Shown here piece after piece: positions 21,910 through 37,200 of a stretch of DNA of 64,000 bases. The notes under the pieces are model-generated. The model ran no database searches. It was not told the origin of the DNA and saw only the letters and a list, made by a program, of their open reading frames with translations. A program made the translations under genes and the position numbers. Source of the stretch: Acidobacteriota bacterium (GTDB lineage: Bacteria; Acidobacteriota; Terriglobia; Bryobacterales; UBA6623); contig WGMB01000003.1 in assembly GCA_016125275.1 (NCBI GenBank), positions 806,001 through 870,000 of the forward strand, in the 5' to 3' direction. Position 1 is the first letter of the stretch. Every line of letters begins with the position of its first letter.

Positions 21910-22894
21910 AGACCCCTATCCAGTGATTGGTGAATTGCAGATTCGGCTGCGGCCGAACCCCCGGCATGTGGCACGCCACGCAATCGCCGCGCTCGCCGTC
22001 GCCCTCGTGCGCCCCTGGGTGGCATTGCAGGCAGACGGCGCGGTAGCTTCCGCCGCCCGTCTTGACCAGCGGATCGTGCGGGCTGTGGCAACTGACGCAG
22101 GAGAGGCTTCCGGCGCCGCCCTCGAAGCACGCGCTCTGCGCCAGGTATACCGGCGCGTGCCGCACGTTCCAGGGGTCGCCCCAGTCGGCGGCCTGCGAAG
22201 GGTCCGGGCGACGGTGGCACGCCCCGCAGCGCTCGGAGATGGCCGCCGGCGAGACCTTGCCCGAGAACTCCGGCGCGCCCCCCCGCAGATGCTCCGCGCC
22301 GGGACCGTGGCAGGCCTCGCAGCGCACGCCCGCCTCGGTCAGCCGCGCCCGGCCGTCCGCGCCAAAGGCCGCCGGGCCGGTGGAATGGCACTCGAAACAG
22401 CCTCGGATGCCGCCGGCGCCCTCGATGCGGTAGGTCAAACCCACGGCCTCGCCCAGCGAGCCCGGCGCGGCGATGTGGCCGGGCGTCGGGCCGAGCCGGC
22501 CCACGGACGCGAAAAACGTAAGACCGTGCTCCAAGTAGTAGTCGCCTTCCAGGTGCGAAACGAAAGTGACGCCCTGTCCGCCCGCGCCGAAGGCCCAGTC
22601 CGCCGCCATGTCCGAGCTTTCCCCGCCCCCCAGCATTCGAACCCGCAAGCCGCCTTGGGCGCGGTAGAAGCGGGCCACGAAACCCGGCGCGCGCTCCACG
22701 TTGCCTAGCTTGGCCACGGCCCCCGCCAGGGGATGCTCTCCGGCCGCCCACAACGAGGCGGCGTGGGCGCTGCCGGCCTGACGCTGCCAGATCTCCGCGT
22801 GGCAGCCTTGGCAGGCCTGCGAGCCCACGTATCCGTCGGCCCCCGCGGCGCTCGCGGCGAGCCATAGCAGCAGCGCCGCACAGCGAACCGACAT
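21872..22894 (-). CDS. secreted heptahaem cytochrome c
   Basis: 340 residues from ATG 22894, which starts a signal peptide (MSVRCAALLLWLAASAAGA). Seven CxxCH haem sites: CQGCH 28-32, CFECH 166-170, CEACH 192-196, CGACH 223-227, CVSCH 266-270, CLQCH 288-292 and CVACH 305-309. Distal His candidates include GSAHAAS and the HLEGDYYLEHG region. The arrangement is like cytochrome c554/NrfA-related multihaem proteins, but no substrate-binding motif (for example CxxCK) is seen, so it is likely an electron conduit. The open frame reaches 23476 but the extra part is antisense to the receptor gene. It overlaps the CRTAC1 gene by 38 bases. Confidence 0.9.
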   Translation of the reverse strand: MSVRCAALLLWLAASAAGADGYVGSQACQGCHAEIWQRQAGSAHAASLWAAGEHPLAGAVAKLGNVERAPGFVARFYRAQGGLRVRMLGGGESSDMAADWAFGAGGQGVTFVSHLEGDYYLEHGLTFFASVGRLGPTPGHIAAPGSLGEAVGLTYRIEGAGGIRGCFECHSTGPAAFGADGRARLTEAGVRCEACHGPGAEHLRGGAPEFSGKVSPAAISERCGACHRRPDPSQAADWGDPWNVRHAPVYLAQSACFEGGAGSLSCVSCHSPHDPLVKTGGGSYRAVCLQCHPGAHEGDGERGDCVACHMPGVRPQPNLQFTNHWIGVYAEGSPLQPMGR

Positions 22895-22914
22895 GGGTGC
22901 ATTGTAAACGGCAA

Positions 22915-22946
22915 GGTCCGCCGCGGCGAAGTCGCCGCGGCGGACC
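22915..22946 (-). terminator. strong hairpin after the first tandem receptor
   Basis: A perfect 15-base inverted repeat (22915-22929 and 22932-22946, arms GGTCCGCCGCGGCGA and its complement) lies 28 bases after the receptor stop and 20 bases before the cytochrome start. There is no clear T-run, so termination may be partial or the hairpin may act as an mRNA-stability element. Confidence 0.55.
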
Positions 22947-22974
22947 CAGCGCGTCAGGGAGAGAGATCCAGCCG

Positions 22975-25900
22975 CTACCAGAGAATCTTCATGCCGAGCT
23001 GGATGTTGCGCGGCCCGTACTGCGTGCCGGTGATCCGGCCGAAGTTGCCTGCCGCGAAGTTGGTGACGGGGTTGCCGAACACCACTCGGTTGAGCGGGTT
23101 GGCGACCTCGAAGCGGAACTGGTGAGAGATCCGCTCCGTGATGTTGGTGTTCTTGAACAGCGCGAAGGACTCTTCCATGTACATCGGTCCCCGCACGTTG
23201 CTCAGGTAGCGCGGCGCCGAGCCGTACTGCCCTTCCGCCGGCAGCGCGAAGGCCGAGGCGTTCAGGTAGATATCCTTGGCCGGGTCGAAGTCGCCCATGG
23301 CGACGTCGCTGCGGACGCCGTCGGCGTTGACCAGGTCCGGACGCAGGCCGCCGTTGAAGTACGGCAGCGTGTTGTTGGCGGTGATGCCCAGGCGGGTGCC
23401 GCTCTGGTAGGAGTGCACGCCGGCCAGGCTCCAGCCGCCGAGGATCGCGTTGCTCGCGCCGCCGGAGCTCATCCACTTCTTGCCCTTCCCGAACGGCAGC
23501 TCATAGTTGTAGCTGAAGGTCAGGATGTGCGGGCGGTCGGTGGGGTGGAAGCTCTTTTCGCGCTTGTAGGAGCTCTGCGCGCCGATGAAGTCGTCGAACA
23601 TGCGGCCGTCGGTCTTGAACCGCGAGAACGTATAGGCGAACGTCCCGGTCAAGCCGTTGCGCAGACGCTTGTCGATCTTCGACTGCAGCGAGTGGTAGCT
23701 CGAGTTGGCGTACGTCGAGCCGTAGATGCTCAGGTCGCCGAACTGCGGGTAGGGCCGCAAGGCCTGGGCGACCGTGCCGCGCGCTCCCCACAACTGGGAG
23801 AAGCCCGCGAACGGCTCCACTACGCCGTACTGCCGCGCCAAGTCCGAGTTGACGTTGGCGCGCAGCACGTTGAGCGGGAGCTGCGTGGCCGCGTCCGGAA
23901 TCTGGTTCACCGCCTGGCTCTCATACAGGTGGGTGCCCTTGTTGCCGACGTAGCCCACGCTGACGCCGATGTCGTCACGGAACTGCCGCTCGAACATGAT
24001 GTTCCACTGCGCCTTGGTGGGCAGGCTGTACTGATCCCGCAACACGACCGTGCCGTTCTGCCCGTTCGACTGCGTCGACGAGAAGTTCGGCGGAGCCGCG
24101 AAATTCTGCGGGAAGCCGTTGTCCCAGTTGAAGGCCGGGGTGACGCCGCTGTTGCCGGTGGCGAAGTTGGCGGTCGTGGCGTAGCCGGTCTGCGGTAGGC
24201 CCAGGCCCTGGTTGATGTAGTTGGAGTTGAAGATGCCGGCCGCGGCGCGGATCACCGTCTTCTCCTGCAGGCGATAGGCGAAGCCGAAACGCGGCGCGGG
24301 GTTCACCCACAGCGTGTCGAGCAAGCGGTTGCCGAAGCCCTGGTCGCCGCCGAAGATCAGCGCGCCCGGCAAACCGGAAGCCGCGTCGTTGGGCGTGTGC
24401 AGGTCGATGTAGGACAGGCGGCCCTTGGGGTCGCCGTGCGGCACGATGATCTCCCAGCGCAGGCCCATCTCGAGGGTCAGCTTGGGGGTCACCTTGTAGG
24501 TGTCGTTGATGAACATGCCCCACACCGCATAGCGGCCGTTGGCCTGGTCGGCGCGGAAGTACGACGAAGCGTTGTTGACCTCGCCGAGCAAGAAGCTCGC
24601 CCAGGCGTCGCCGGTGTTGCCGAACGACTGCGGGTTGCCGGTGCCGTTGCTGCGGAACCGGAAGTCGCCGGCGCCGGTGCCCTGGCTGTCGTAGTCGTCG
24701 TCATGCCGCTGGACCTCGAAGCCCACCTTGAGCTCGTGCTTGCCGCGGATCATGGTCAACGTATCCAGGAACGTGTAGGTGTCGTTGTGGTAGTCGCCGG
24801 CGATGTTGTCACCGTACCGGGTGTACCCCTGGGTGTCGAACTGGATCGTCGGGAAGTTGTCGAACTGCAGGCCGGTGAGGCCGAGCATGCCGCCGTTGGG
24901 CTGCGTCCAGCCCTGGTTGATCGCCAGGCTGTTGTTGGGGTTGAAGAAGCGCGAGAAGCCAAAACCGAGCCGGTTGTAAGTGGTCGGGTTGATGGTGCTG
25001 TCCAGGTTGGAGTGAATGACCTTGGTCTTCACGATCTGGAAGTTGTAGTTCATCAGCGCCGTGGTGTCGCCCACCGGGATCAGCCGCGACGGGCCGGGGC
25101 TCTTGATCGACGGCCGGCCGGTGCTCGAGATCGTCGTCGACCAGCGATGGTTGCTCGTGAAGTCGTGGTTGAACTTCATCGCCTGGTGCCGCTGCGTCGT
25201 GCTCGGGCTCGCCAACGGGGCCACGCTGTTCTGGGTGACGCCGGGCAACTCCGGCTTGGGGTGGTAGGGCAACATCACCGAGGTGACGCGGCTCCAGCGC
25301 GACTGCGGAATGATCTGGTTCGGGAACGGGTTGCGCGAGTACGAGCCGTCGGCGTTCTGCACCGTCGTCGCCGGATCGTAGATCGTGTTCGGCAGCTCGC
25401 CGAAGTCGCCCGTCTGCATGTTCGCCGTCGGGATCGTGTTCAATCCCGTCAACTGGCCGCCGCGCAGGTAGAACTCGTTGTAGGAGTAGAACCAGAACGT
25501 CTTGTTGCGGCCGTCGTAGACCTTCGGGATGTAGACCGGGCCGCCGCCGGTGACGCCCCACTCGTTCTGCCGCACCGGCGCCTTGCTCGAATTGAAGAAG
25601 CCGCGGGCGTCGAGCTTGTCGTTGCGGAAGAATTCCCAGCCGGAGCCGTGGAACTCGTTGGTGCCGCTCTTGAGCGTGAAGCTGGTGATCGCGCCGAGCG
25701 CGTGCGAGTACTCGGCCGAATAGTTGTTGGTGATCAGCTTGAACTCGCCGATCGAATCCACCGGCGGGTTGACCTCGCCGTCGTTGGACAAGTCGCCGCG
25801 GCTCAACGAGATGCCGTCGTAGTACGTCTGGTCCTGGAAGGACCCGCCGCCGGAGACCGACTTGTTCCAGGTGCTGGTGCCGGAGACGCCCGGCGAGAGC

Positions 25901-26379
25901 TTGATGAAGCTCGAAGGGTTGCGGATGCCGCCGCCCAGGGTGAGGGGCAGTTGCAGGAAGCGCTTGGACTCGACGACGAGGCCGACGTCGGTCTTCTCGG
26001 TCTGGATCAGAGGCGCCGCAACGCCGCTGACGGTCACGGTTTCCGTCACCGCGCCCAGCTCCAGGGCGATGTCCACGGTCGTGACCTGGTTGATCTGCAC
26101 TTGGACCTGCGGGCGCTCATAGCCCTGAAATCCTTCGGCCGTGGCGCGCAGGGAATAGACGCCGACGGGCAGGTTGGGGAAGCGATAGATGCCGCTCTCG
26201 TTCGACTGAGCGTGCTGGACGGCGTTGGTCGCCGTGTTGGTCACCGTGATCTCGGCTCCCGGAACGGCAGCGCCGCTGGAATCGAGCGCGAGCCCGGTGA
26301 TGGATCCGCCCGTTGCCTGTCCGAAAACGACGGACGCAAAGAGCAGAAATGCAGAAGCATACCGACAGATAATCGGCAA
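22975..26379 (-). CDS. Oar-like TonB-dependent receptor (tandem copy 1)
   Basis: 1134 residues. Signal peptide (ICRYASAFLLFASVVFGQ), a carboxypeptidase-regulatory-like domain (about 22-105: GSITGLALDSSGAAVPGAEI, GIYRFPNLPVGVYSLRATAEG), a plug region (about 115-330: VTETVTVSGVAAPLIQTE, GEFKLITNNYSAEY, TLKSGTNEFHGS) and an outer-membrane beta-barrel ending in aromatic strands (RNIQLGMKILW). Such receptors import or bind large substrates in the outer membrane. The start is TTG 26379 with GGAGG six bases upstream; this gives exactly the length of the tandem copy. The neighbouring paralogue (26827-30231) is nearly identical. Promoter and terminator candidates flank it. Confidence 0.92.
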   Translation of the reverse strand: MPIICRYASAFLLFASVVFGQATGGSITGLALDSSGAAVPGAEITVTNTATNAVQHAQSNESGIYRFPNLPVGVYSLRATAEGFQGYERPQVQVQINQVTTVDIALELGAVTETVTVSGVAAPLIQTEKTDVGLVVESKRFLQLPLTLGGGIRNPSSFIKLSPGVSGTSTWNKSVSGGGSFQDQTYYDGISLSRGDLSNDGEVNPPVDSIGEFKLITNNYSAEYSHALGAITSFTLKSGTNEFHGSGWEFFRNDKLDARGFFNSSKAPVRQNEWGVTGGGPVYIPKVYDGRNKTFWFYSYNEFYLRGGQLTGLNTIPTANMQTGDFGELPNTIYDPATTVQNADGSYSRNPFPNQIIPQSRWSRVTSVMLPYHPKPELPGVTQNSVAPLASPSTTQRHQAMKFNHDFTSNHRWSTTISSTGRPSIKSPGPSRLIPVGDTTALMNYNFQIVKTKVIHSNLDSTINPTTYNRLGFGFSRFFNPNNSLAINQGWTQPNGGMLGLTGLQFDNFPTIQFDTQGYTRYGDNIAGDYHNDTYTFLDTLTMIRGKHELKVGFEVQRHDDDYDSQGTGAGDFRFRSNGTGNPQSFGNTGDAWASFLLGEVNNASSYFRADQANGRYAVWGMFINDTYKVTPKLTLEMGLRWEIIVPHGDPKGRLSYIDLHTPNDAASGLPGALIFGGDQGFGNRLLDTLWVNPAPRFGFAYRLQEKTVIRAAAGIFNSNYINQGLGLPQTGYATTANFATGNSGVTPAFNWDNGFPQNFAAPPNFSSTQSNGQNGTVVLRDQYSLPTKAQWNIMFERQFRDDIGVSVGYVGNKGTHLYESQAVNQIPDAATQLPLNVLRANVNSDLARQYGVVEPFAGFSQLWGARGTVAQALRPYPQFGDLSIYGSTYANSSYHSLQSKIDKRLRNGLTGTFAYTFSRFKTDGRMFDDFIGAQSSYKREKSFHPTDRPHILTFSYNYELPFGKGKKWMSSGGASNAILGGWSLAGVHSYQSGTRLGITANNTLPYFNGGLRPDLVNADGVRSDVAMGDFDPAKDIYLNASAFALPAEGQYGSAPRYLSNVRGPMYMEESFALFKNTNITERISHQFRFEVANPLNRVVFGNPVTNFAAGNFGRITGTQYGPRNIQLGMKILW

Positions 26380-26461
26380 AGTGAACCTCCAAAAGGAGCC
26401 GGGGAGACGTGCCGGCGCCGCTGTCAGGCGAGAAAAGGAGCCACGAGACCCCTAGGTCGCC

Positions 26462-26491
26462 AGCCTAAACCCGGGCCGGAATTCCAGTCAA
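26462..26491 (-). promoter_or_regulatory. candidate sigma70-type promoter of receptor copy 1
   Basis: Reading the minus strand: TTGACT (26486-26491), an 18-base spacer, TAGGCT (26462-26467). It lies about 80 bases upstream of the TTG start. The same -35 and spacer length occur before copy 2. Two direct repeats GAATTCCA overlap the -35 and could be an operator. Confidence 0.5.
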
Positions 26492-26763
26492 CGAATTCCA
26501 CCTGAATTTGCGCGTTCAGTGCGAATATGGATGAAACCCTACGACGGGTCCATGGGGGCGAATCCGGGATGCCATTTGCGTCGGGCGAACCCTTTGAGTC
26601 CGCTTCTTTCCAGCCGCGGCCCATAAAACAGAACGTTTTCCAGGAGCCCCAGGAATCTTTCGTCATCCCACGCTTTCGTGCTATCGATTCCCGAGAGGAT
26701 TGACCGAATGCAACGAGAATGAATGCGCTTTCTTTTGACTCCGGAAACAATTTCGTTTCCAAA

Positions 26764-26800
26764 CGAAGAAAAGCCCGCCGCAGCAACGGCTGCGGCGGGC
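26764..26800 (-). terminator. Rho-independent terminator of receptor copy 2
   Basis: Minus strand: 12-base GC stem (arms 26773-26784 and 26789-26800, GCCCGCCGCAGC and complement), loop CGTT, followed by TTTTCTTC. It lies 26 bases after the stop codon. Confidence 0.85.
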
Positions 26801-26826
26801 GATAGCCCGAAGGCGGGTTCCGGCGG

Positions 26827-29800
26827 TTACCAGAGCAGCTTCATGCCGAACTGGATGTTCCGCGGAGTGTACTGCGTGCCGGTAATGCGGCCGAAGTTGC
26901 CCGCCGCGAAGTTCGTGACGGGGTTGCCGAACACCACCCGGTTGAGCGGGTTGGCGACCTCGAAGCGGAATTGGTGGGTGATCCGTTCGGTGATCTTGGT
27001 GTTCTTGAACAGCGCGAACGACTCCTCCAGGTACATCGGGCCTCGCACGTTGCTCAGATAGCGCGGCGACGAACCGTACTGCCCTTCCGCAGGCAGCGCA
27101 AAGGCCGCCTTGTTGAGGTAGATGTCGGTGGCCGGGTCGAAGGCGCCCATGGTCACGTCGCTGCGGATGGAGTCCGGGCTCACCAGGTCCGGACGCAACC
27201 CGCCGTTGAAGTACGGCAGCGTGTTGTTGCCGGTCACCGACAGCCGCGACCCGCTCTGGTAGGAGTGCACGCCCGCCGCCGTCCAACCGCCGAGCAGGAC
27301 GTTGGCGACGCCGCCGGCGTTGAGCCAGCGCTTGCCCTCGCCGAACGGCAGCTCATAGTTGTAGCTGAAGGTCAGCACGTGCGGCCGGTCGGTGGGGTGG
27401 AAGCTCCGCTCGCGCTGGTAGTAGCTCTGGGAGTTGACGAAACCGTCGAACATGCGGCCGTCGGTCTTGAAGCGCGAGAACGTGTAGGCGAACGTCCCCG
27501 TCAGACCGTTGCGGTAGCGCTTGTTGATCTTCGTCTGCAGCGAGTGATAGCTCGAGTTGGCGTACGTCGAGCCGTAGATGCTCAGGCTACCGAACTGCGG
27601 GTACGGCCGCAGCGCCTGGGCGACCGTGCCGCGCGCTCCCCAGAGCTGGGAGAAGCCCGCGAACGGCTCCACCACGCCATACTGGCGCGCCAGGTCCGAG
27701 TTCACGTCCGCCCGCAGCACGTTGAGCGGGAGCTGCGTGGCCGCGTCCGGAATCTGGTTGATGTTCTGGCTCTCGTACAAGTGAGTGCCCTTGTTGCCGA
27801 CGTAGCCGATGCTGACGCCGATGTCGTCGCGGAACTGCCGCTCGAACATCAGGTTCCACTGCGCCTTGGTCGGCAAGCTGTAGTCGTCGCGTAGGACCAC
27901 CGTGCCGTTCTGGCCGTTGGACTGCGTCGGCGAGAAGTTCGGCGGCGCCTGGAAGTTCTGCGGGAAGCCGTTGTCCCAGTTGAACGCCGGCGTCACGCCG
28001 TTGTTGCCGGTGGCGAAGCTCGCCGTCGTGGCGTAGCCGGTCTGCGGCAGGCCCAGGCCCTGGTTGATGTAGTTGGAGTTGAAGATGCCCACGGCCGCCC
28101 GAATCACCGTCTTCTCCTGCAACTTATAGGCGAAGCCGAAGCGCGGCGCCGGGTTCACCCACAGCGTATTGAGCAGGCGGTTGCCGAAGCCCTGGTCGCC
28201 GCCGAAGATCAGCGCGCCCGGCAGCCCCGAGGCCGAGTCGTTCGGCGTGTGCAGATCGATGTAGGACAAGCGGCCCTTGGGGTCGCCGTGCGGCACGATG
28301 ATCTCCCACCGCAGCCCCATGTCGATGGTCAGCTTCGGGGTGACCTTGAAGCTGTCGTTGATGAACATGCCCCACACCGCGTAGCGGCCGTTCGCCTGGT
28401 CGGCGCGGAAATAAGACGAGGCATTGTCCACCTGACCGAGCAGAAAGCTCGCCCAAGCGTCGCCGGTGGCGCCGAAGGCCTGGGGATTCCCGGTCCCGTT
28501 GCTCTTGAAGTGAAAGTCGCCGGCGCCGGTGCCCTGGCTGTCGTAGTCGTCGTCGTGCCGCTGCACCTCGAAGCCCATCTTGAGCTCGTGCTTGCCGCGG
28601 ATCATCGTCAGCGTATCCAGGAAGGTATAGGTGTCGGCGTGGTAGTCGCCGGCGATGTTGTCGCCGTAGCGCGTGTAGCCCTGGGTGTCGAACTGGATCG
28701 TCGGGAAGTTGTCGAACTGCAAACCCAGCAGCCCCAGCATGCCGCCGTTCGGCTGCGTCCAGCCCTGGTTGATCGCCAAGCTGTTGTTCGGGTTGAAGAA
28801 CCGCGAGAAGCCGAAGCCCAGCCGGTTGTAGGTGGTCGGGTTGATGGTGCTGTCCAGGTTCGAGTGGATCACCTTCGTCTTGACGACCTGATAGTTGTAG
28901 TTCATCAAGGCGGTCGTATCGCCCACCGGGATCAGCCGCGACGGGCCGGGGCTCTTGATCGACGGCCGGCCGGTGCTCGAGATCGTCGTCGACCAGCGGT
29001 GGTTGCTCGTGAAGTCGTGGTTGAACTTCATCGCCTGGTGCCGCTGCGTCACGCTGGGGCTGGCCAGCGGCGCGATGCTGTTCTGGGTCACGCCGGGCAA
29101 CTCGGGCTTGGGATGGTACGGCAGCATCACCGAGGTCACGCGGCTCCAGCGTGATTCGGGAATGATCTGGTTCGGGAACGGGTCGCGCGAGTACGAGCCG
29201 TCGCCGTTCTGCACCGTCGTGGACGGGTCATAGATCGTGTTCGGCAGCTCGCCGAAGTCGCCCGTCTGCATGTTCGCCGTCGGAATCGTGTTCAGCCCGC
29301 TGAGCTGCCCGCCGCGGCGATAGAACTCGTTGTAGGAGTAAAACCAGAACGTCTTGTTGCGACCGTCGTAGACCTTCGGAATGAAGACCGGACCGCCGCC
29401 GGTAACGCCCCATTCGTTCTGCCGCACCGGCGCCTTCTCCGAATTAAAGAAGCCGCGGGCGTCGAGCTTGTCGTTGCGGAAGAACTCCCAGGCCGAGCCG
29501 TGAAAGTCGTTGGTTCCGCTCTTGAGCGTAAAGCTGGTGATCGCGCCCAGCGCGTGCGAATACTCGGCCGAATAGTTGTTGGTGATCAGCTTGAACTCGC
29601 CGATCGAATCCACCGGCGGGTTGACCTCGCCGTCGTTGGACAAGTCGCCGCGGCTCAACGAGATGCCGTCGTAGTAGACCTGATCCTGGAAGGACCCGCC
29701 GCCGGAGACCGACTTGTTCCAGGTGCTGGTGCCCGAAACGCCCGGCGCCAGCTTGATGAAGCTCGAAGGGTTGCGGATGCCGCCGCCCAACGTCAGCGGC

Positions 29801-30231
29801 AGGTTCAAGAAGCGTTTGGATTCGACGACGATGCCGACGTCGGTCTGCTCGGTCTGGATCAACGGAGCGGCAACGCCGCTGACCGTAATCGTCTCGGTGA
29901 CCGCGCCGAGCTCGAAGGCCAGATCCACGGTGGTCACCTGGTTGATCTGCACCTCCACTTGGGGGCGTTCGTAGGCCTGAAAGCCTTCCGCCGTACCGCG
30001 CAGCGCGTAGACTCCGACGGCGAGGCTGGGGAAGCGGTAGATGCCGCTCTCATTCGACTGCGTCGTCTGGGTGACGTTGGTAGCGACGTTCTTGACCGTG
30101 ATCGTGGCGCCAGGGATGGCCGAACCGGTCGAATCAATGGCGAGCCCGGAAATCGAGCCGCCGCCCGCCTGACCAAAGGCGAGAGAACAAAAAACGAGAC
30201 AGGCGCCGAAAATCCGGCAGAGCTGAAGCAA
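26827..30231 (-). CDS. Oar-like TonB-dependent receptor (tandem copy 2)
   Basis: 1134 residues from TTG 30231 (GGAGG six bases upstream), the same length as the downstream copy. Signal peptide (LCRIFGACLVFCSLAFGQ), carboxypeptidase-regulatory domain (GSISGLAIDSTGSAIPGATI), plug and beta-barrel ending RNIQFGMKLLW. By eye about nine residues in ten match copy 1, and blocks over 100 bases long are identical at DNA level in the plug and early barrel. Differences concentrate in the signal peptide, the regulatory domain and parts of the C-terminal barrel (for example FVNSQSYYQRERS against FIGAQSSYKREKS). It has its own promoter and a strong terminator, so the copies are separately transcribed. The ligand is unknown. 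Confidence 0.92.
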   Translation of the reverse strand: MLQLCRIFGACLVFCSLAFGQAGGGSISGLAIDSTGSAIPGATITVKNVATNVTQTTQSNESGIYRFPSLAVGVYALRGTAEGFQAYERPQVEVQINQVTTVDLAFELGAVTETITVSGVAAPLIQTEQTDVGIVVESKRFLNLPLTLGGGIRNPSSFIKLAPGVSGTSTWNKSVSGGGSFQDQVYYDGISLSRGDLSNDGEVNPPVDSIGEFKLITNNYSAEYSHALGAITSFTLKSGTNDFHGSAWEFFRNDKLDARGFFNSEKAPVRQNEWGVTGGGPVFIPKVYDGRNKTFWFYSYNEFYRRGGQLSGLNTIPTANMQTGDFGELPNTIYDPSTTVQNGDGSYSRDPFPNQIIPESRWSRVTSVMLPYHPKPELPGVTQNSIAPLASPSVTQRHQAMKFNHDFTSNHRWSTTISSTGRPSIKSPGPSRLIPVGDTTALMNYNYQVVKTKVIHSNLDSTINPTTYNRLGFGFSRFFNPNNSLAINQGWTQPNGGMLGLLGLQFDNFPTIQFDTQGYTRYGDNIAGDYHADTYTFLDTLTMIRGKHELKMGFEVQRHDDDYDSQGTGAGDFHFKSNGTGNPQAFGATGDAWASFLLGQVDNASSYFRADQANGRYAVWGMFINDSFKVTPKLTIDMGLRWEIIVPHGDPKGRLSYIDLHTPNDSASGLPGALIFGGDQGFGNRLLNTLWVNPAPRFGFAYKLQEKTVIRAAVGIFNSNYINQGLGLPQTGYATTASFATGNNGVTPAFNWDNGFPQNFQAPPNFSPTQSNGQNGTVVLRDDYSLPTKAQWNLMFERQFRDDIGVSIGYVGNKGTHLYESQNINQIPDAATQLPLNVLRADVNSDLARQYGVVEPFAGFSQLWGARGTVAQALRPYPQFGSLSIYGSTYANSSYHSLQTKINKRYRNGLTGTFAYTFSRFKTDGRMFDGFVNSQSYYQRERSFHPTDRPHVLTFSYNYELPFGEGKRWLNAGGVANVLLGGWTAAGVHSYQSGSRLSVTGNNTLPYFNGGLRPDLVSPDSIRSDVTMGAFDPATDIYLNKAAFALPAEGQYGSSPRYLSNVRGPMYLEESFALFKNTKITERITHQFRFEVANPLNRVVFGNPVTNFAAGNFGRITGTQYTPRNIQFGMKLLW

Positions 30232-30311
30232 GATGCACCTCCAGGGGGGCGGAGAAGGCAGAACGCCCTGAAACAATCTGACTTGGAATGGGCGTCCCTA
30301 GACCCCCGGGA

Positions 30312-30341
30312 ATCGTACCCCTGTTCTCATGGATTTGTCAA
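30312..30341 (-). promoter_or_regulatory. sigma70-type promoter of receptor copy 2
   Basis: Minus strand: perfect -35 TTGACA (30336-30341), 18-base spacer, -10 TACGAT (30312-30317), about 80 bases before the TTG start. This is the best promoter match I see in the window. Confidence 0.65.
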
Positions 30342-30361
30342 TCGATAACACAGGTATCGAT
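30341..30361. promoter_or_regulatory. inverted repeat next to the receptor promoter, operator candidate
   Basis: ATCGATA (30341-30347), 7-base spacer, TATCGAT (30355-30361). The left arm touches the -35 hexamer of the receptor promoter, a position typical for repressors or activators. No matching repeat stands before copy 1. Confidence 0.45.
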
Positions 30362-30652
30362 AGCCCATCCCACGGATTCCTCCGGAATTTTCTAGGCCCC
30401 CGACTTGGACCACAACATGTCTAAAACAAATGACATACACAAATCGTGAGCGAAGCGAAGAGGCCAGAGGCGACGCCGTGGAGAACGCACTCACCGGAGG
30501 GATCTCAGCCAGCGCATACCCGAACTACAAGCGGTTACATCAAGGAGTTTCTCTCCAACGAACTGGCAGTTCTCTATATCCCAATCTTTTGGACCAAGAC
30601 CCTCCGGAACGGCGGGTCATCCGAGCGAGACCGCCTTCCCCTTCGACCCGTG

Positions 30653-30683
30653 GAGCCCTCCGACCCGGCTTGCGGGCTCTTTT
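30653..30683 (+). terminator. weak hairpin plus T-run upstream of fabD
   Basis: GAGCCC (30653-30658), 15-base loop, GGGCTC (30674-30679), then TTTT (30680-30683). It ends 25 bases before the fabD start, so it may shield fabD from upstream transcription or act as a leader structure. Six base pairs is short. Confidence 0.35.
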
Positions 30684-30708
30684 CCCGAACGACTACGCTG
30701 GAAGGTTT

Positions 30709-31635
30709 ATGTCCAAGACGGCATGGCTCTTTCCGGGGCAGGGCTCCCAATCGCCGGGCATGGGGCGCGACTTGGCGGAGACGTCTCCGGCGGCCCGCGC
30801 CGTCTTCGAGGCGGCTGACGACGCCCTCGGCTTTCCGCTCTCCCAGCTCTGTTTCGAGGGCCCCAAGGAAGAGCTCACCCTCACCGAGAACACGCAGCCC
30901 GCGATCCTCACGGTGTCCATCGCAGCGCTGGCGGCTCTGCGCGAGCGAGGCCTGCCGGAAGCGGACTTCGTGGCTGGCCACAGCCTGGGAGAGTACTCCG
31001 CGGCGGTCGCCGCCGGCGCGATGGACTTCCGTGACGCAGTGCAACTGGTGCGCAAGCGCGGCCGCTACATGCAAGAGGCCGTGCCGCCGGGCGTCGGCGC
31101 CATGGCGGCGATCCTGGGCTTGTCGCCCGATCAGGTGGCCGAAATCTGCAAGCAGGCCGCCGAAGGCCAGATCGTCAGCCCCGCCAACATCAATTCGCCG
31201 CTGCAGATCGTGATCGCCGGCGACGCCGCCGCGGTCGAGCGCGCCCAGGAGCTCGCCCGCCAGGCCGGCGCCAAGCGCGTGGTGGCCCTGGCCGTGAGCG
31301 CGCCCTTCCACTGCGCCCTCATGGAGCCGGCCCAGCGCTGCCTGGGCCTGGATCTCGAGAAGACGGCGATCGCCGACGCGCGCATTCCGCTGGTCAACAA
31401 CTTCGCCGCCGAGAGCGTGGTCGCCGCCGAGGAGATTCGCCGCGGACTGTTCCAACAGGTTCCGAACCCGGTACGCTGGGAAGAGTCGGTTCGCCGTCTC
31501 GCGGCCGAAGGCGTCACTCGATTCCTGGAGATCGGCCCGGGCAAGGTTCTGCTCGGCTTGTTGCGGGGCATCGATCGCAGCCTGGAAGGCGCCGCGGTCG
31601 GCGATGCCGAAAGCCTGGAGAAAGCTCTCTCATGA
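30709..31635 (+). CDS. fabD: malonyl-CoA:ACP transacylase
   Basis: 308 residues. It loads malonyl groups from CoA onto acyl carrier protein for type II fatty acid synthesis in the cytoplasm. Visible signature: AWLFPGQGSQSPGMG at the N-terminus (oxyanion Gln), nucleophile Ser in FVAGHSLGEYSA (about 91), the Arg in RKRGRYMQEAVP, catalytic His in VSAPFHCALM (about 200) and GPGKVLLGL near the end. Length is normal for FabD. ATG 30709 has GAAGG at five bases. Its stop overlaps the next gene by four bases (ATGA), giving a fabD-fabG pair; acpP, fabH and fabF are not next to it in this window. Confidence 0.95.
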   Translation: MSKTAWLFPGQGSQSPGMGRDLAETSPAARAVFEAADDALGFPLSQLCFEGPKEELTLTENTQPAILTVSIAALAALRERGLPEADFVAGHSLGEYSAAVAAGAMDFRDAVQLVRKRGRYMQEAVPPGVGAMAAILGLSPDQVAEICKQAAEGQIVSPANINSPLQIVIAGDAAAVERAQELARQAGAKRVVALAVSAPFHCALMEPAQRCLGLDLEKTAIADARIPLVNNFAAESVVAAEEIRRGLFQQVPNPVRWEESVRRLAAEGVTRFLEIGPGKVLLGLLRGIDRSLEGAAVGDAESLEKALS

Positions 31636-32384
31636 CCGCCAGCGCACCCAAGACCCGCGTCGCTCTCGTCACAGGGGCCAGCCAAGGCATCGGCCGCGCC
31701 TGCGCTCTCGATCTGGCTTCGGCCGGTTACCGCGTCATCATCGCGGCCCGCTCGGCCGACAAGCTCGCTGAGCTGGCCGAGGAGATCCGCGCGAGCGGGG
31801 CTGAAGCGCACCCCGTAGCGCTCGACCTCAGCGACGCCGCCTCCATCGCCGCCGCCGCCAAAGCCGCCGAGGAAGCCGCCGGCGGCCCCATCGACATCCT
31901 GGTGAACAACGCCGGCGTCACGCGCGACGGCCTCGCCATGCGCATGTCCGCCGAAGCCTGGAACGAGGTCATCCAGACCAACCTCACCGGCGCCTTTCTG
32001 CTCACCCAAGCCGTGATGCGCGGCATGATCAAGCAACGCTGGGGCCGCATCATCAACATCTCGTCGGTGGTGGGCCAGTCCGGCAATCCCGGACAGGCCA
32101 ACTACGTGGCATCAAAAGCCGGCTTGATCGGTTTGACGAAGTCGCTGGCTCTCGAGCTGGCCGGCCGCAACGTCACCGTCAACGCCGTGGCGCCGGGCTT
32201 CATCGAAACGGCCATGACGGCTGCGCTGAGCGAGCAACAGCGAGCGGCGATTCTCGACAAGATCCCGCTCGGGCGCATCGGCGCGGCGGAAGACGTGGCG
32301 GCGGCAGTGCGCTATTTGGCGTCGGACCAAGCCGGCTACGTCACCGGCCACGTGCTCAACGTCAACGGCGGCATGTACGTCTAG
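31632..32384 (+). CDS. fabG: 3-oxoacyl-ACP reductase
   Basis: 250 residues, NADPH-dependent reductase of the elongation cycle. Cofactor motif TGASQGIG (about 15-22), NNAGVTRDGLAMRM (typical FabG wording), catalytic Ser in INISSVVG, YxxxK in NYVASKAGLIG, PGFIETAMT and the C-terminal GHVLNVNGGMYV are all classic FabG. The start ATG overlaps the fabD stop, so translation is coupled. The 3' end overlaps the convergent small membrane gene by four bases. Confidence 0.95.
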   Translation: MTASAPKTRVALVTGASQGIGRACALDLASAGYRVIIAARSADKLAELAEEIRASGAEAHPVALDLSDAASIAAAAKAAEEAAGGPIDILVNNAGVTRDGLAMRMSAEAWNEVIQTNLTGAFLLTQAVMRGMIKQRWGRIINISSVVGQSGNPGQANYVASKAGLIGLTKSLALELAGRNVTVNAVAPGFIETAMTAALSEQQRAAILDKIPLGRIGAAEDVAAAVRYLASDQAGYVTGHVLNVNGGMYV

Positions 32385-32716
32385 CCGCGCGCCGAGCCGG
32401 AACCGCGCAACTCCCGCAGCACCCTGGCGACGGCCGTCGCCATAGCCACCGTCGGAGAGATCGCCGCAGCCTCCTGCGGGCTGCCCAGCCCGGGCGCCGC
32501 AGCCAGAACGCCCACCAGGCTGCCCAGCAGCGTCAGCCCGGCGATGAGCCACAGATTCTTCGGACGCAGGCCCATCGCCCGCGCGATCGTCACGCTCGAC
32601 AGGCCGATGGCCGGACTCACGGCCAACGCCGCCCACGGCGACAGCAAGGCGCTGCCGCACAGTGCGACCGCAACGACGGCGACGTAGCCGAGGCTCAACC
32701 AACGGGCGCTGCTCAC
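32381..32716 (-). CDS. small membrane protein of unknown function
   Basis: 111 residues starting with GTG. Three hydrophobic stretches: LGYVAVVAVALCGSALLSPW, ALAVSPAIGLSSVTIARA and LWLIAGLTLLGSLVGVLAAAP, followed by a helical tail (TVAMATAVARVLREL). No recognised motif; size and lay-out resemble small integral membrane proteins of unknown role. It is convergent with fabG and 69 bases downstream of the ASPIC protein gene on the same strand. Confidence 0.55.
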   Translation of the reverse strand: MSSARWLSLGYVAVVAVALCGSALLSPWAALAVSPAIGLSSVTIARAMGLRPKNLWLIAGLTLLGSLVGVLAAAPGLGSPQEAAAISPTVAMATAVARVLRELRGSGSARG

Positions 32717-32785
32717 CGGGGAACGTCCAACTCTCGACTGTAGCGCGATTGCCGGATGGACTCGACCGCCCGATCGCCTGCGAGG

Positions 32786-34063
32786 CTACTCCTCCAGCAG
32801 CTCGACCGGAGCGCCCTCGCGGACGCGGTAGGCCTTGCCCGTCCGCAAGCCCTGTGCGAGTTGGCCGCGGCCGCTGGGCCACACGATCCGGAGCTGATCG
32901 ACGGTCGTTTCCGCCCCCAAGCCGAAGTGCAGGTCGCCCGAGCCCGCCTGCCGGCGGCTCTGCCTGCGTCCGCCCGCCACCAGCGTCACCGCCGCGCCGG
33001 CAGTCGCGCCGTCCCAGCCCTCGAGCCGCAACGTCAAGAAGCCGCCCGGCGCCCGCGAGGAATAGACGTGCAGGTCGCCCTCGGCCGAGCGGGCGATGAT
33101 CTCCGGGCGGCGGTCGCCGTCAAGGTCGGCCTCGGCCAGCGCCGCCGCCGCCACTTCCCAGGCGCCGGCGGGCTCGAAGCGTCCGCGCCCGTCGGCGTTC
33201 CGAAACAAGGCCACCCGATCCCGCTGGGCGAGCGCCAGGTCCAGGTCGCCGTCGAAGTCCGCGTCGAACAGCAACGCGTCTCCCAGGCCGCGCCCGTCGG
33301 TCGGAAGCGGTTCGGCGACGAAGCTCCCGTCCGGGGCTCGGCGGTTGAGCGTCGGCGGGGCGTCGTTGGCGGATTCGACCAGGTCCGCGTCGCCGTCGCC
33401 GTCGATGTCGCCCGCGGCCCAGGCCGCCCGCCGCGAGCCGCTCGCCCGTCCGCCCGTTCCAACCGGCGTGAGGGCTCGCCCGCCCGGCCCCAGCCGTTGC
33501 GAGGCGCCCTGCCCACAGGTCAGAATCGCCTCGTCGGGGAGCAGCAGCACGCCTCGCAGGTCGCAACCGGCGGCGCTCACGGGCTCGCGCGGCTCGAGGT
33601 CCTCCACCGCGTACGCGCGCAGCCCCTCCGGCGCCGCCAGGTACAGCAACGGCTCCGGCCCGAGCACCGAGACGCCGACCTCGCAGGCGCGGAAATCCCC
33701 GCGCAGCGTCCCGCCTGCGAAGTACAGCCCGAACGGGCCGGAGGCGAATGCCCGAGCCGGCCGCCCGGGCGGCCCCTGGGCCGCACAAACGTCCGTCCCG
33801 ACGCCGGGAACCAGATCCAGCGCCACTTGCTGAAACCCCTGGGAACCTCGATTCTTGAGCGCAGCGGCGGGGGACGACGCCGGCCGCCGGTCCGCCAGCA
33901 GCAGGTCGAAATCGCCGTCGCCATCCAGGTCCGCCGCAGTCAGCGCGCGGCCGGGAATCGCAAACGCGGCGAGCCCGAGCTCCGCCGTCCTCTCGGTCCA
34001 CTCGAACGAAACAACCTGCGCGCTCGCCGAGCAGGCGAGGCAGAGAATCCACAACCAACGCAC
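32786..34063 (-). CDS. secreted FG-GAP/VCBS protein with ASPIC/UnbV end
   Basis: 425 residues starting at GTG 34063 with a signal peptide (LWILCLACSASAQ). Ca-binding FG-GAP-type loops recur (AADLDGDGDFDLLLAD, AGDIDGDGDADLVESAND, DADFDGDLDLALAQRD, ADLDGDRRPEIIARS), and the C-terminus has the ASPIC/UnbV pattern (GAAVTLVAGGRRQSRR, DQLRIVWPSGRGQLAQG). It is a short relative of the CRTAC1 protein at 19579, lacking the TPR part. Cys pairs (RACEV, GCDLRG, LTCGQG) suggest disulphides. It is divergent from the giant Ig-like protein across a 200-base gap. Confidence 0.82.
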   Translation of the reverse strand: MRWLWILCLACSASAQVVSFEWTERTAELGLAAFAIPGRALTAADLDGDGDFDLLLADRRPASSPAAALKNRGSQGFQQVALDLVPGVGTDVCAAQGPPGRPARAFASGPFGLYFAGGTLRGDFRACEVGVSVLGPEPLLYLAAPEGLRAYAVEDLEPREPVSAAGCDLRGVLLLPDEAILTCGQGASQRLGPGGRALTPVGTGGRASGSRRAAWAAGDIDGDGDADLVESANDAPPTLNRRAPDGSFVAEPLPTDGRGLGDALLFDADFDGDLDLALAQRDRVALFRNADGRGRFEPAGAWEVAAAALAEADLDGDRRPEIIARSAEGDLHVYSSRAPGGFLTLRLEGWDGATAGAAVTLVAGGRRQSRRQAGSGDLHFGLGAETTVDQLRIVWPSGRGQLAQGLRTGKAYRVREGAPVELLEE

Positions 34064-34263
34064 TTAAGGGGAAAACCCTAGCAGGCCGAAAGCGCCCGCC
34101 GCAAGCAGTCCGCCCCCCCGGCGCCGGACGAGATCGCTACACTGTCACTGAAACTCTCGGCGCCGAGTCTCTTGGCGTTGAAAACTTTGGCCGTCGTCTT
34201 GCTCCTAGCAGCCGCGCGGCCTGCGGGCGCCCGCCTGTTGTCCCCGTTGGTCGACGAGATCCC

Positions 34264-37200
34264 ATGCGTTATTTCCTGTCCCTGCTCCTGACGCTCTGCG
34301 CCCTGCCCCTGACCGCGCCCGCGGCGGACCTGCTGTTCGCCTTCGACGGCGATGCGGCGGTCGCGCGCGTCTATGACGCCGCCACGCTCACGCTGCTCTC
34401 CACGCCGCAAGTCCCTGCCGGCGCTCGGTTTGCAGTCGGCCGACCGGCGCCTTCGGGCAGTGGCTTCGACCGCATCTACTTGATCGGGGACGGTGGCGTG
34501 GAGGTTCTCGACGGCGCCTTCCAGAGTCTCGGGAGCATCGCGGTGGAAGGCTCGCCGGCGCCTCTGCAGCCGGCCGCGCTCAGCGCCGACGGACGGTTTC
34601 TGGTACTGGCCGCGGGCTCCAAGGCGTATCGCATCGACACGTCCGACGGCTCGATCGACACGATCGCCGAGACCGGCCGGGACTTGGCCGGGGTCGCGCT
34701 GCCGGCAGATTCCGGCTACGCCTTCCTGCTGGCCTCTGACCGGCGGACGGTGTTTCGCATGAACGTCTCGACCGGAGCGCTCGACGGACCGACGACGGCC
34801 TTGCCGGCGTTCGTCCAGGCGCTCCAGGCCGGACGAGCGACGGCGGAAGGCGGCTTGGCCGGGTTTGACCTCGGCAAGCTGTCCGACGCCTTCTTCGCAG
34901 CCGGAGAGCGGCCGAGCCGGGTTGTGGGAACCCGCTCCGCCGCCTCCGGCCTCGCCGAGCCCTCGGCCGCCTCGCCCGACGGCCGCGTCGAGTGGCGCAT
35001 GGCCGGCAACGGGTCCCTGCAGCGAGTGGACGTCACGGGCCAAACGGCAGCCCTCGAGACGCCTTCGGCCGGAACCACCGCGCTGGCCCTGCTCTCCGGG
35101 CCGGTAGTGGAACAAACCGGCCCGCAGCTCGAGAAGGTCGGAGGCGACGGCCAGATCGTGCTCGCCGGCAACCCCTTCACGCTGCAAGTGCAGGGCAGCG
35201 GTGGCGTCATCGGCGGGTTGCCGCTGGGCGTCTCCGTTTCGCCGTCGCTGGCAACGTGCAATGCGCCGGCGCTGAGTGGCGTGACCACCATCAACTGCAC
35301 GGCCTCGGTCTCGGTCCCGGCGTCGACCCAGGTTTCCATCACCGTCAGCGGCCTCGGCAACCCGGTGGTCTTCTCGGTGGTGGTCGTGCCGCAAGGCCTG
35401 TCGGACAGTCTGTCGATCGTGGCCGGCAACAACCAGAACGTCGCCACCGGCGCTTCGTTCTCGCTCTCGGTACGGTCGGTCAAGGGCGGCGTGCCCTTCT
35501 CGGGCGGCACGATCTCGGTGGCCTCGATCAGCCCGGGCGTGGCGACCTGCCCGACGTCGAGGACCGCTTCCCTGCTCGGCGAGGCGACCTTCGACTGCAC
35601 CGCGGACTTCGTCTCGGTGTTCACGCCGGTGACCATCCAACTCACCGACGGCGCCAACGTCGCCAACTTCCAGCTCAACGTGATCGCGGGGGGAGGCCCC
35701 AGCGGCGGGCTCGCCAAGGTCAGCGCCGATCCCTCCACGGCGGCGGAAGGCACGAGCTTCACCCTCACCGTGGAAGCCAAGATCGACGGCACGCCGCAGG
35801 TCGGGCTGCAAGTCAACGTCAACGCCGCCAGCGCGGCCATCACCTGCCCGGCGAACGCCACCACCAACCAGAGCGGCCAGGCCGCCATCATCTGCCAGGC
35901 GAACCAGGTCAACCAAGACACCACCACGACGGTCACGGTGAGCGAGGGCGGCCGTTCGGTGACCTTTACCGTCACCGTCGCCAACCAGGACCAGAGCGAC
36001 GGGTTGCGGATCGTCTCCGGCAACGGCCAAATCGTCACCCAGAACACCCAGTTCCCGCAGCCGCTCGTCGTCAGCGCCCGCATCAACGGCGTGCCGCAGA
36101 ATGGCCTCAAGCTGACCGTCCAGAGCAGCAACAACGCCGTCTTCTGCACGGATCAGCTGTTGACCGACGAAAACGGCCTCGGCCAGATCGTCTGCAACGC
36201 CGGCGCGGTCAGCAGCTTCACGACCGTGCAGATCCTGGTGTCGGACGACAACGGCCGCGTGCTGCCCGAACCCTTTACGGCCACGGTCTCGCCCACGCCG
36301 GTCGGCATCGCCACCGACATCGAGTTGCTGACGACCGGCCCATTGATCGGGACCGTGGGCGAGGAGGCGCCGACGGGCATCCGCGTGCGCGCCGTCAACG
36401 ACTCCAACGAGCCCGTGCCCGGCGCCACCATCTTCTTCCGCTCCAGCGCGGACCTGTCCTTCAGCCCAGCCGTGGTGACCTCCAACGTCAGCGGCGAGGC
36501 CGTCACGACCGTCACCTTCGGCTGCCCTTCGCGCACCGGAACCATCCAGATCGGCCTGACCGCCGTCTCCACCGAGGCCACCCTGGACTTCCAGGCCAAC
36601 AACGGCCCCTTGGCGCAGTTGCAGGTTTTGCAAGGCGACGGCCAGAGCGGCTCGCCGGGCGTTCGCATGGGGCAGGCGCTGCTGGTCCGCACGGCGGACG
36701 TCTGCGGCAACCCCGTGCCGAACACCGCGGTCGCCTGGGGCGTCAATCCGCCCGAAGCCGCCGCGCTCGAGGTCGTCGGCCAAGTCTCCAACGGCCAGGG
36801 GCAAGCCTCCGCGCTGGTGCGGCCCACGGCTCGCGGCGGCCCGTTCCAGGTGCTGGTGGCGGCCCAGTCTGACAGCTCCATCCAGGCGACGTTCAACCTC
36901 ACGGTCACGAACATCCCCACCTTCTTCCGCTCCGTCTCCGGAAACGCCCAAACCGTGGCCGCCGGAGCCGTGACGGCCGAACCGGTCGTGGTGGAAGTGC
37001 TCAACGAGCAGAGCCAGCCGGTGGCCGGCGTCAACGTCAGCTTCAGCGTGCTCGAGGGCGGGGTGACCATCGAGTCCCAAACCGGCGCGACCAACGCCAT
37101 GGGCCGCTCGTCGGCCTTCATCCGGGCGGGCTCCACGCTGGGGCCGGCCAAGGTGCGCGCGACGGCCTTGGGGCTGGCGGTGGACTTTTTGGTCAGCGTG

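Follow-up and report, generated by a model that had tools for sequence, protein, structure and literature searches.

A near-consensus promoter and an adjoining ATCGATA dyad as candidate operator upstream of one of two tandem receptor-like genes in an Acidobacteriota bacterium

When two neighbouring genes encode almost the same surface receptor, the question arises whether both are expressed together or whether each answers to its own control region. This question is posed by a tandem pair of genes, both on the minus strand, in a 64-kb window (C14:806001-870000; the whole stretch of DNA that was analysed) of the 7.55-Mb, 20-contig assembly of an Acidobacteriota bacterium.

Twin receptor genes with separate promoters

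The genes and gene borders at this locus are as follows.

22975..26379, minus strand: receptor copy 1 (the twin), 1134 amino acids, probable TTG start
26773..26800, minus strand: terminator-like hairpin between copy 2 and copy 1, 12-pair stem (11 G-C), followed by TTTTCTTCGT
26827..30231, minus strand: receptor copy 2, TonB-dependent-receptor-like outer membrane protein, 1134 amino acids, probable TTG start at 30231
30238..30242, minus strand: ribosome-binding site GGAGG of copy 2, as read in the sequence
30709..31635, plus strand: fabD-like divergent neighbour with an acyltransferase domain (PF00698, matched on the open reading frame 30430-31635; start placed by eye)
31632-32384: fabG-like short-chain dehydrogenase (PF00106), after the fabD-like gene

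Both receptor proteins contain a CarboxypepD_reg domain (PF13620) and an OMP_b-brl_4 domain (PF25183), that is, the regulatory-like N-terminal domain and the outer-membrane beta-barrel that characterize a TonB-dependent receptor. A Plug domain (PF07715) was not among the five Pfam families matched at E 0.001 in either copy, and the genes are therefore named receptor-like. The start of copy 2 at 30231 agrees with the codon comparison with copy 1, which is gapless from there; the probable TTG start of copy 1 is likewise preceded by GGAGG. The two copies, initially annotated as near-identical, share 89% of their residues (over 1131 residues) and 87% of their DNA, so that this description holds only approximately. 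At E 1e-200, none of the family's 17 other genomes yielded a close orthologue of the pair that would allow footprinting. Receptor relatives in other genomes were at most 31% identical over the 79 loci compared, 78 of which carry names of Acidobacteria or of acidobacterial groups and genera, and one that of Verrucomicrobia. Open reading frames with multihaem cytochrome-like motifs (PF14522) and FG-GAP/ASPIC-UnbV proteins (PF07593) were also seen near the receptors (21872-23476, 19579-21909, and 32786-34063). No Rfam family reached its gathering score within the 64-kb window.

The hairpin at 26773-26800 is the strongest terminator-like site among those listed, a class that is not in excess (9 found versus 8.4 expected). 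Given this hairpin between the twins, at which we infer that transcription ends, each copy probably needs its own promoter. The promoter elements of the two copies, and the repeats next to them, are the following.

30312..30317, minus strand: -10 hexamer TACGAT of copy 2, 18-bp spacer
30336..30341, minus strand: -35 hexamer TTGACA of copy 2
30341..30361, no strand assigned: operator-like dyad ATCGATA-N7-TATCGAT of copy 2, arms 30341-30347 and 30355-30361, loop of 7 nt
30371..30390, minus strand: AAATTCCGGAGGAATCCGTG, a weak match by alignment to AAATTCAGGTGGAATTCGTT of the twin
26462..26467, minus strand: -10 hexamer TAGGCT of copy 1, 18-bp spacer
26486..26491, minus strand: -35 hexamer TTGACT of copy 1
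26478..26499, no strand assigned: dyad GGAATTC-GTTGACTG-GAATTCC of copy 1, arms 26499-26493 and 26484-26478, N8 loop, centred on the -35

The copy 2 promoter lies in the divergent intergenic space facing the fabD-like gene. It matches a simple sigma-70-like consensus at 10 of 12 positions, the best score in the window, so that TTGACA-18-TACGAT was rightly annotated, base for base, as the strongest promoter match there. A score of 9 out of 12 was reached by three sites window-wide, and the same three lie in 24000-36000, where 0.5 were expected. Compared with the consensus of sigma-70 (RpoD-type) promoters, TTGACA-N17-TATAAT, the copy 2 promoter has a perfect -35, a -10 of the form TAnnnT, and an 18-bp spacer (within the 16-18 bp of a near-consensus site of this type), but its -10, TACGAT, matches at only four of six positions. 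The inverted repeat had been said to touch this -35; letters and coordinates are exact, and the overlap is a single base, 30341. Another inverted repeat, ATGTC-N10-GACAT (30417-30436), stands in A/T-rich DNA of the space that separates copy 2 from the fabD-like gene and possibly belongs to the fabD promoter region.

For the twin, the annotated elements, TTGACT-18-TAGGCT and two copies of GAATTCCA over the -35, were all retrieved. The latter are direct repeats as described, and they also form a perfect inverted repeat around the -35, which had been missed. The shared promoter geometry proposed for the twins is borne out by the 18-bp spacers of both promoters and by -10 hexamers whose ends lie 80 and 82 bp upstream of the start codons. 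Similarly, the twins do differ in their operator-like repeats, distinct 7-bp dyads standing beside the -35 in copy 2 and around it in copy 1. The remaining upstream DNA is barely alignable, the pairing of AAATTCCGGAGGAATCCGTG with AAATTCAGGTGGAATTCGTT having a local score of 14.0 versus 11.5 +/- 1.7 in resamples (p ~0.1; p ~0.04 for the last 200 bp). Throughout, the resamples used for promoter, motif, dyad, and alignment statistics were first-order Markov resamples. Among 19 comparisons of the upstream regions of neighbouring receptors, the alignment reached p 0.05 or better in eight and fell short of this level in 11, indicating that the promoter difference of these twins is not exceptional. 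That the twins have separate promoters with different dyads is well supported by the sequence, and their separate regulation is likewise well grounded; the alternate expression proposed for the two receptors would be a prediction that goes further.

A promoter class shared by many receptor genes, and the A/T-rich DNA upstream of it

The promoter of copy 2 is not special to its gene, as promoters of its class occur at about one quarter of the 90 receptor paralogues examined. These 90 are the listed matches that begin within the first 38 receptor residues; later fragments and matches without an N-terminus were left aside, and distant members are missing, so that the genome contains at least 90. 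Start codons were picked by a simple script, so that individual ones may be misplaced. Of the 90 upstream regions, searched over the 300 bp that precede the start, 13 contained a perfect TTGACA followed at 16-19 bp by TAnnnT, and 22 contained a -35 with at least five of six matches, versus 0 and 2 on the opposite strand, 0 and 1 in reversed sequence, and means of 0.03 and 1.63 in resamples. Genome-wide, TTGACA-N17/18-TANNNT occurred at 53 sites (7 for the reversed control), 14 of them no farther than 600 bp from a receptor start and the other 39 elsewhere. The copy 2 promoter hence appears to be an ordinary near-consensus, sigma-70-like receptor promoter, with a predicted transcription start near 30305. 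In the part of the report on Candidatus Solibacter usitatus that was available (PMC3174227), expanded TonB-dependent receptor families are described, and both that genome and the present one are large acidobacterial genomes with groups of receptor paralogues; the words 'promoter' and 'gene conversion' occur 0 times in that part, which does not treat receptor promoters.

Two further patterns in promoter regions were noted. AGGGGT/ACCCCT occurred in 38 of the 90 receptor upstream regions (12.4 expected); it was set aside as a receptor motif, as 11 of its 33 forward instances resemble ribosome-binding sites, standing 10-20 bp ahead of the start codon. Two non-receptor promoters, L180 (C6:207.8 kb) and L203 (C14:1014.5 kb), share TTGACAGGCTAGGAGAGC as well as a CTAGGAGA / TCTCCTAG dyad that runs from the spacer to beyond the -10 and is perhaps a shared operator.

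The DNA just upstream of the -35 also sets receptor promoters apart. Ten of 23 receptor promoters, including that of copy 1 but not that of copy 2, have GAATT or AATTC in the 30 bp that precede the -35, versus 0 of 39 other TTGACA promoters, and the A/T fraction of the 20 bp upstream of the -35 was 0.52 versus 0.38 (p 2e-4), in a comparison that is not exactly like with like, as the 23 allow one -35 mismatch in a 400-bp range and the 39 are all perfect TTGACA. Both the excess of GAATT/AATTC and the A/T-rich upstream DNA are consistent with strong receptor promoters that carry an UP-like element. The GAATTC repeats of copy 1 may therefore act as such an element in addition to any operator role, which qualifies their annotation as a distinct operator: a different dyad does stand at the -35, and it is a candidate UP-like element as well. 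A twin-like element of the form GAATTCSKTTGACN-N16-18-TANNNT was rejected, as it has one genomic site, at the receptor at C14:224.7 kb, and misfits copy 1, where the gap is one base shorter.

The same A/T richness underlies the main alternative for copy 2, namely that the promoter is real and the dyad a chance pattern in an A/T-rich, UP-like stretch, both copies being constitutive, with UP elements and without a specific operator. This alternative is a serious one, to which we nevertheless give a good deal less than an even chance. As a 7-bp dyad, the repeat is ordinary in the window, which contains 77 perfect 7-bp dyads with loops of 3-10, versus 62, 73, 75, 81, and 82 in five resamples. For the 64 bp that surround the -35, the probability of such a dyad amounts to 3.3% in copy 2 and 3.7% in copy 1. 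These two are the only ones among the 23 receptor promoters with a 7-bp dyad at the -35, which is not an excess over that set (2 versus 0.58 expected, p 0.1). What speaks against a chance pattern is the recurrence of this particular dyad sequence, which in this genome returns only before receptors and, within one mismatch, surpasses permuted dyads of the same composition, as set out below.

Recurrence of the ATCGATA dyad and candidate regulators

A search of the genome for ATCGATA-7-TATCGAT had been proposed with the initial annotation. The exact form proved unique, ATCGATA-N4-12-TATCGAT occurring only at copy 2, and the looser form TATCGATA-N4-9-TATCG was retrieved at three sites in 7.55 Mb, namely at copy 2, at a receptor at C14:541 kb, and at a receptor at C2:33 kb. 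All three sites lie 120-130 bp before a receptor start and in the same orientation; the two sister receptors, which share TATCGATA-N6/7-TATCG with copy 2, are both distantly related receptor genes. The dyad, an inverted repeat at a promoter with 7/7 matching arm positions and a loop of 7, thus recurs at genes of like function above chance, in small numbers, as this evidence rests on three sites. The C2:33 kb site has no recognisable TTGACA-type -35 in the promoter scan. The sister receptor there (L047 / L218) lies downstream of a plsX-like gene (PF02504), and two of the three dyad receptors adjoin fatty-acid synthesis genes (plsX-like; fabD-/fabG-like), perhaps by chance.

As the looser dyad was first noticed within the receptor set, and the test that leaves out the focal gene was designed after the sister sites had been seen, the following counts are to be read accordingly. 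With the focal gene left out, the original arms, and loops of 5-8, two of 89 upstream regions matched within one mismatch, a number reached by none of 200 permuted dyads, and eight matched within three mismatches (mean 1.6), a number reached by one of 200. Restricting the loops to 6-8 gave 2 and 6 of 89, the latter, at three mismatches, again reached by one of 200 permuted dyads. When one base of the second arm was left free and the focal gene was counted, 3, 3, 6, and 21 of the 90 regions matched within 0, 1, 2, and 3 mismatches, versus maxima of 0, 1, 3, and 20 among 40 permuted dyads, 0, 0, 0, and 5 in reversed sequence, and 0, 0, 1, and 5 in the 39 non-receptor promoters. Within the window, the exact dyad pattern had four matches within three mismatches (0.42 expected). 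The half-site TATCGATA alone occurs 17 times in 7.55 Mb, three times in receptor upstream regions and twice within the first 20 receptor codons. At eight of the other 12 sites, the scanned neighbour proteins belonged to varied families, with no receptor among them; of the remaining four, two lie on C20 (open frames listed) and two on C3 (sequence only).

Outside this genome, the association with receptors was not seen, which favours a chance pattern. Among 256 other genomes of the order, 38 contain the looser dyad (N6-7), at 45 sites in all (reversed control 18), and one of them likewise has three. The loci of 30 of these sites were examined for likeness to 17 receptors of the present genome; three sites fall inside a receptor, two behind one, and none in front of one, although for 3 of the 30 a receptor may have escaped notice because the contig stops within 160 bp downstream. 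The family's 17 other genomes have no site of the looser dyad with N5-8 (reversed control 3). The dyad is thus not conserved across related genomes, and, if it is an operator, it would belong to this lineage only.

Weighing the recurrence in this genome against its absence elsewhere, we give about an even chance to the reading that copy 2 has a near-consensus receptor promoter with the dyad as the likely operator of a small, lineage-specific set of receptors. Copy 2 would then combine a sigma-70-like, housekeeping-type promoter with a transcription-factor site at the upstream edge of the -35, the dyad spanning approximately -36 to -56 from the predicted start near 30305. The dimer-type pattern ATCGATA-N6/7-TATCGNT, common to copy 2, C14:541 kb, and C2:33 kb, would probably define a small, species-specific receptor regulon. 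Copy 1, which has no ATCGATA dyad and has its own dyad on the -35, would be cut off from copy 2 transcription by the hairpin, and we infer that each copy is most likely transcribed alone, in answer to a different signal. For the sign of the control, repression lifted by a ligand is slightly favoured over activation, given how near the copy 2 promoter comes to consensus. In being a short inverted repeat at a -35 and in concerning few, functionally related genes, the ATCGATA dyad resembles the ligand-responsive operator dyads found at transporter promoters (e.g., those of TetR and IclR), but it differs in sequence from the GTTCCG-type dyads beside an IclR gene in this genome.

For the protein that would bind the dyad, an IclR-family regulator was a first candidate. 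All five IclR_C matches in the genome lie directly beside receptor genes (three divergent, two on the same strand), at C18:202 kb, C14:540 kb, C1:458 kb, C8:193 kb, and C9:130 kb (L234-L238, L239, L246, L250, L252, L253). One of them (PF01614, PF09339; longest open frame) begins 21 bp from the TATCGATA of C14:541 kb and is divergent from that receptor, so that the dyad could be its operator, through which it would act in trans on copy 2. This assignment is improbable and has largely been rejected, because related loci point to another dyad. Indeed, the closest IclR-receptor pairs, at C1:458 kb and in genome G003 (regulators 50-51% identical), share, as judged by eye, GTTCCG-N5-CGGAAC-like sites, of which C1:458 kb has two before the receptor, and the 541-kb locus itself carries a related TTTCGCAATGTGGAAC near the start codon (likeness by eye). 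The ATCGATA dyad does not resemble these shared sites. The GTTCCG-N5-CGGAAC dyads, in turn, resemble the IclR motif class GKTYCRYW3-4RYGRAMC given in the available part of a published study (PMC13273656).

Alternatively, the functional site at copy 2 could be a shorter near-palindrome, TTATCGATTGACAA, which fully overlaps the -35 and would be read by a TetR-type repressor. It is one base off TTATCGATTGATAA, given as the operator of FhtR (TetR family) of Enterococcus faecalis in the accessible part of PMC7858072. That species is very distant from the present bacterium, however, the TTGACAA half is absent at both sister sites, and, measured against a perfect TTATC-N4-GATAA at all sites, TTATCGATTGACAA has one mismatch and is missing at the two sister sites; this possibility is accordingly the least probable of those considered. 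The string TATCGAT also occurs in the available part of PMC9342713, as part of a primer.

Acidobacteria are abundant in soil. Which of its at least 90 receptor paralogues the present bacterium expresses, and by what choice, seems little studied, a literature search only partly aimed at this subject having found no title on receptor promoters of Acidobacteria. Together, the promoter class, the dyad of three receptors, and the five IclR genes beside receptors make this choice testable gene by gene.

Divergence of the twins

The coding parts of the twins have a dS of 0.45, unevenly spread along the gene. Fourfold sites differ at 46% in the first 150 codons and at 26% in the rest (Fisher p 6e-4, the border having been set after the profile was seen), and 28 identical fourfold sites follow one another in codons 166-226 (p 0.01). 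Similarly, ten comparisons of neighbouring receptors with full sequence were made, nine of them tandem (three within a single triplet) and one head-to-head (L022/L024); in all ten, the first 100 codons exceeded the body mean in synonymous difference, without always being the highest single window. This pattern suggests that gene conversion acts on the barrels and leaves promoters and 5' ends free to diverge; weaker codon selection at the 5' end may also account for the raised divergence there. Extended to the repertoire of the 90 paralogues examined, many of which stand in tandem twins, conversion would keep the barrels alike, while promoters, operators, and N-terminal ends drift, and the ATCGATA dyad would be one entry in a private regulatory code specific to each receptor. 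As a general account this is rather unlikely; if true, each twin would be a pore that could almost replace the other but obeys a signal of its own. The neighbour sets with raised 5' divergence are the present pair (22975-30231), L004/L005, L006/L007, L010/L011, L013/L016/L020, L014/L019, L025/L028, and L022/L024.
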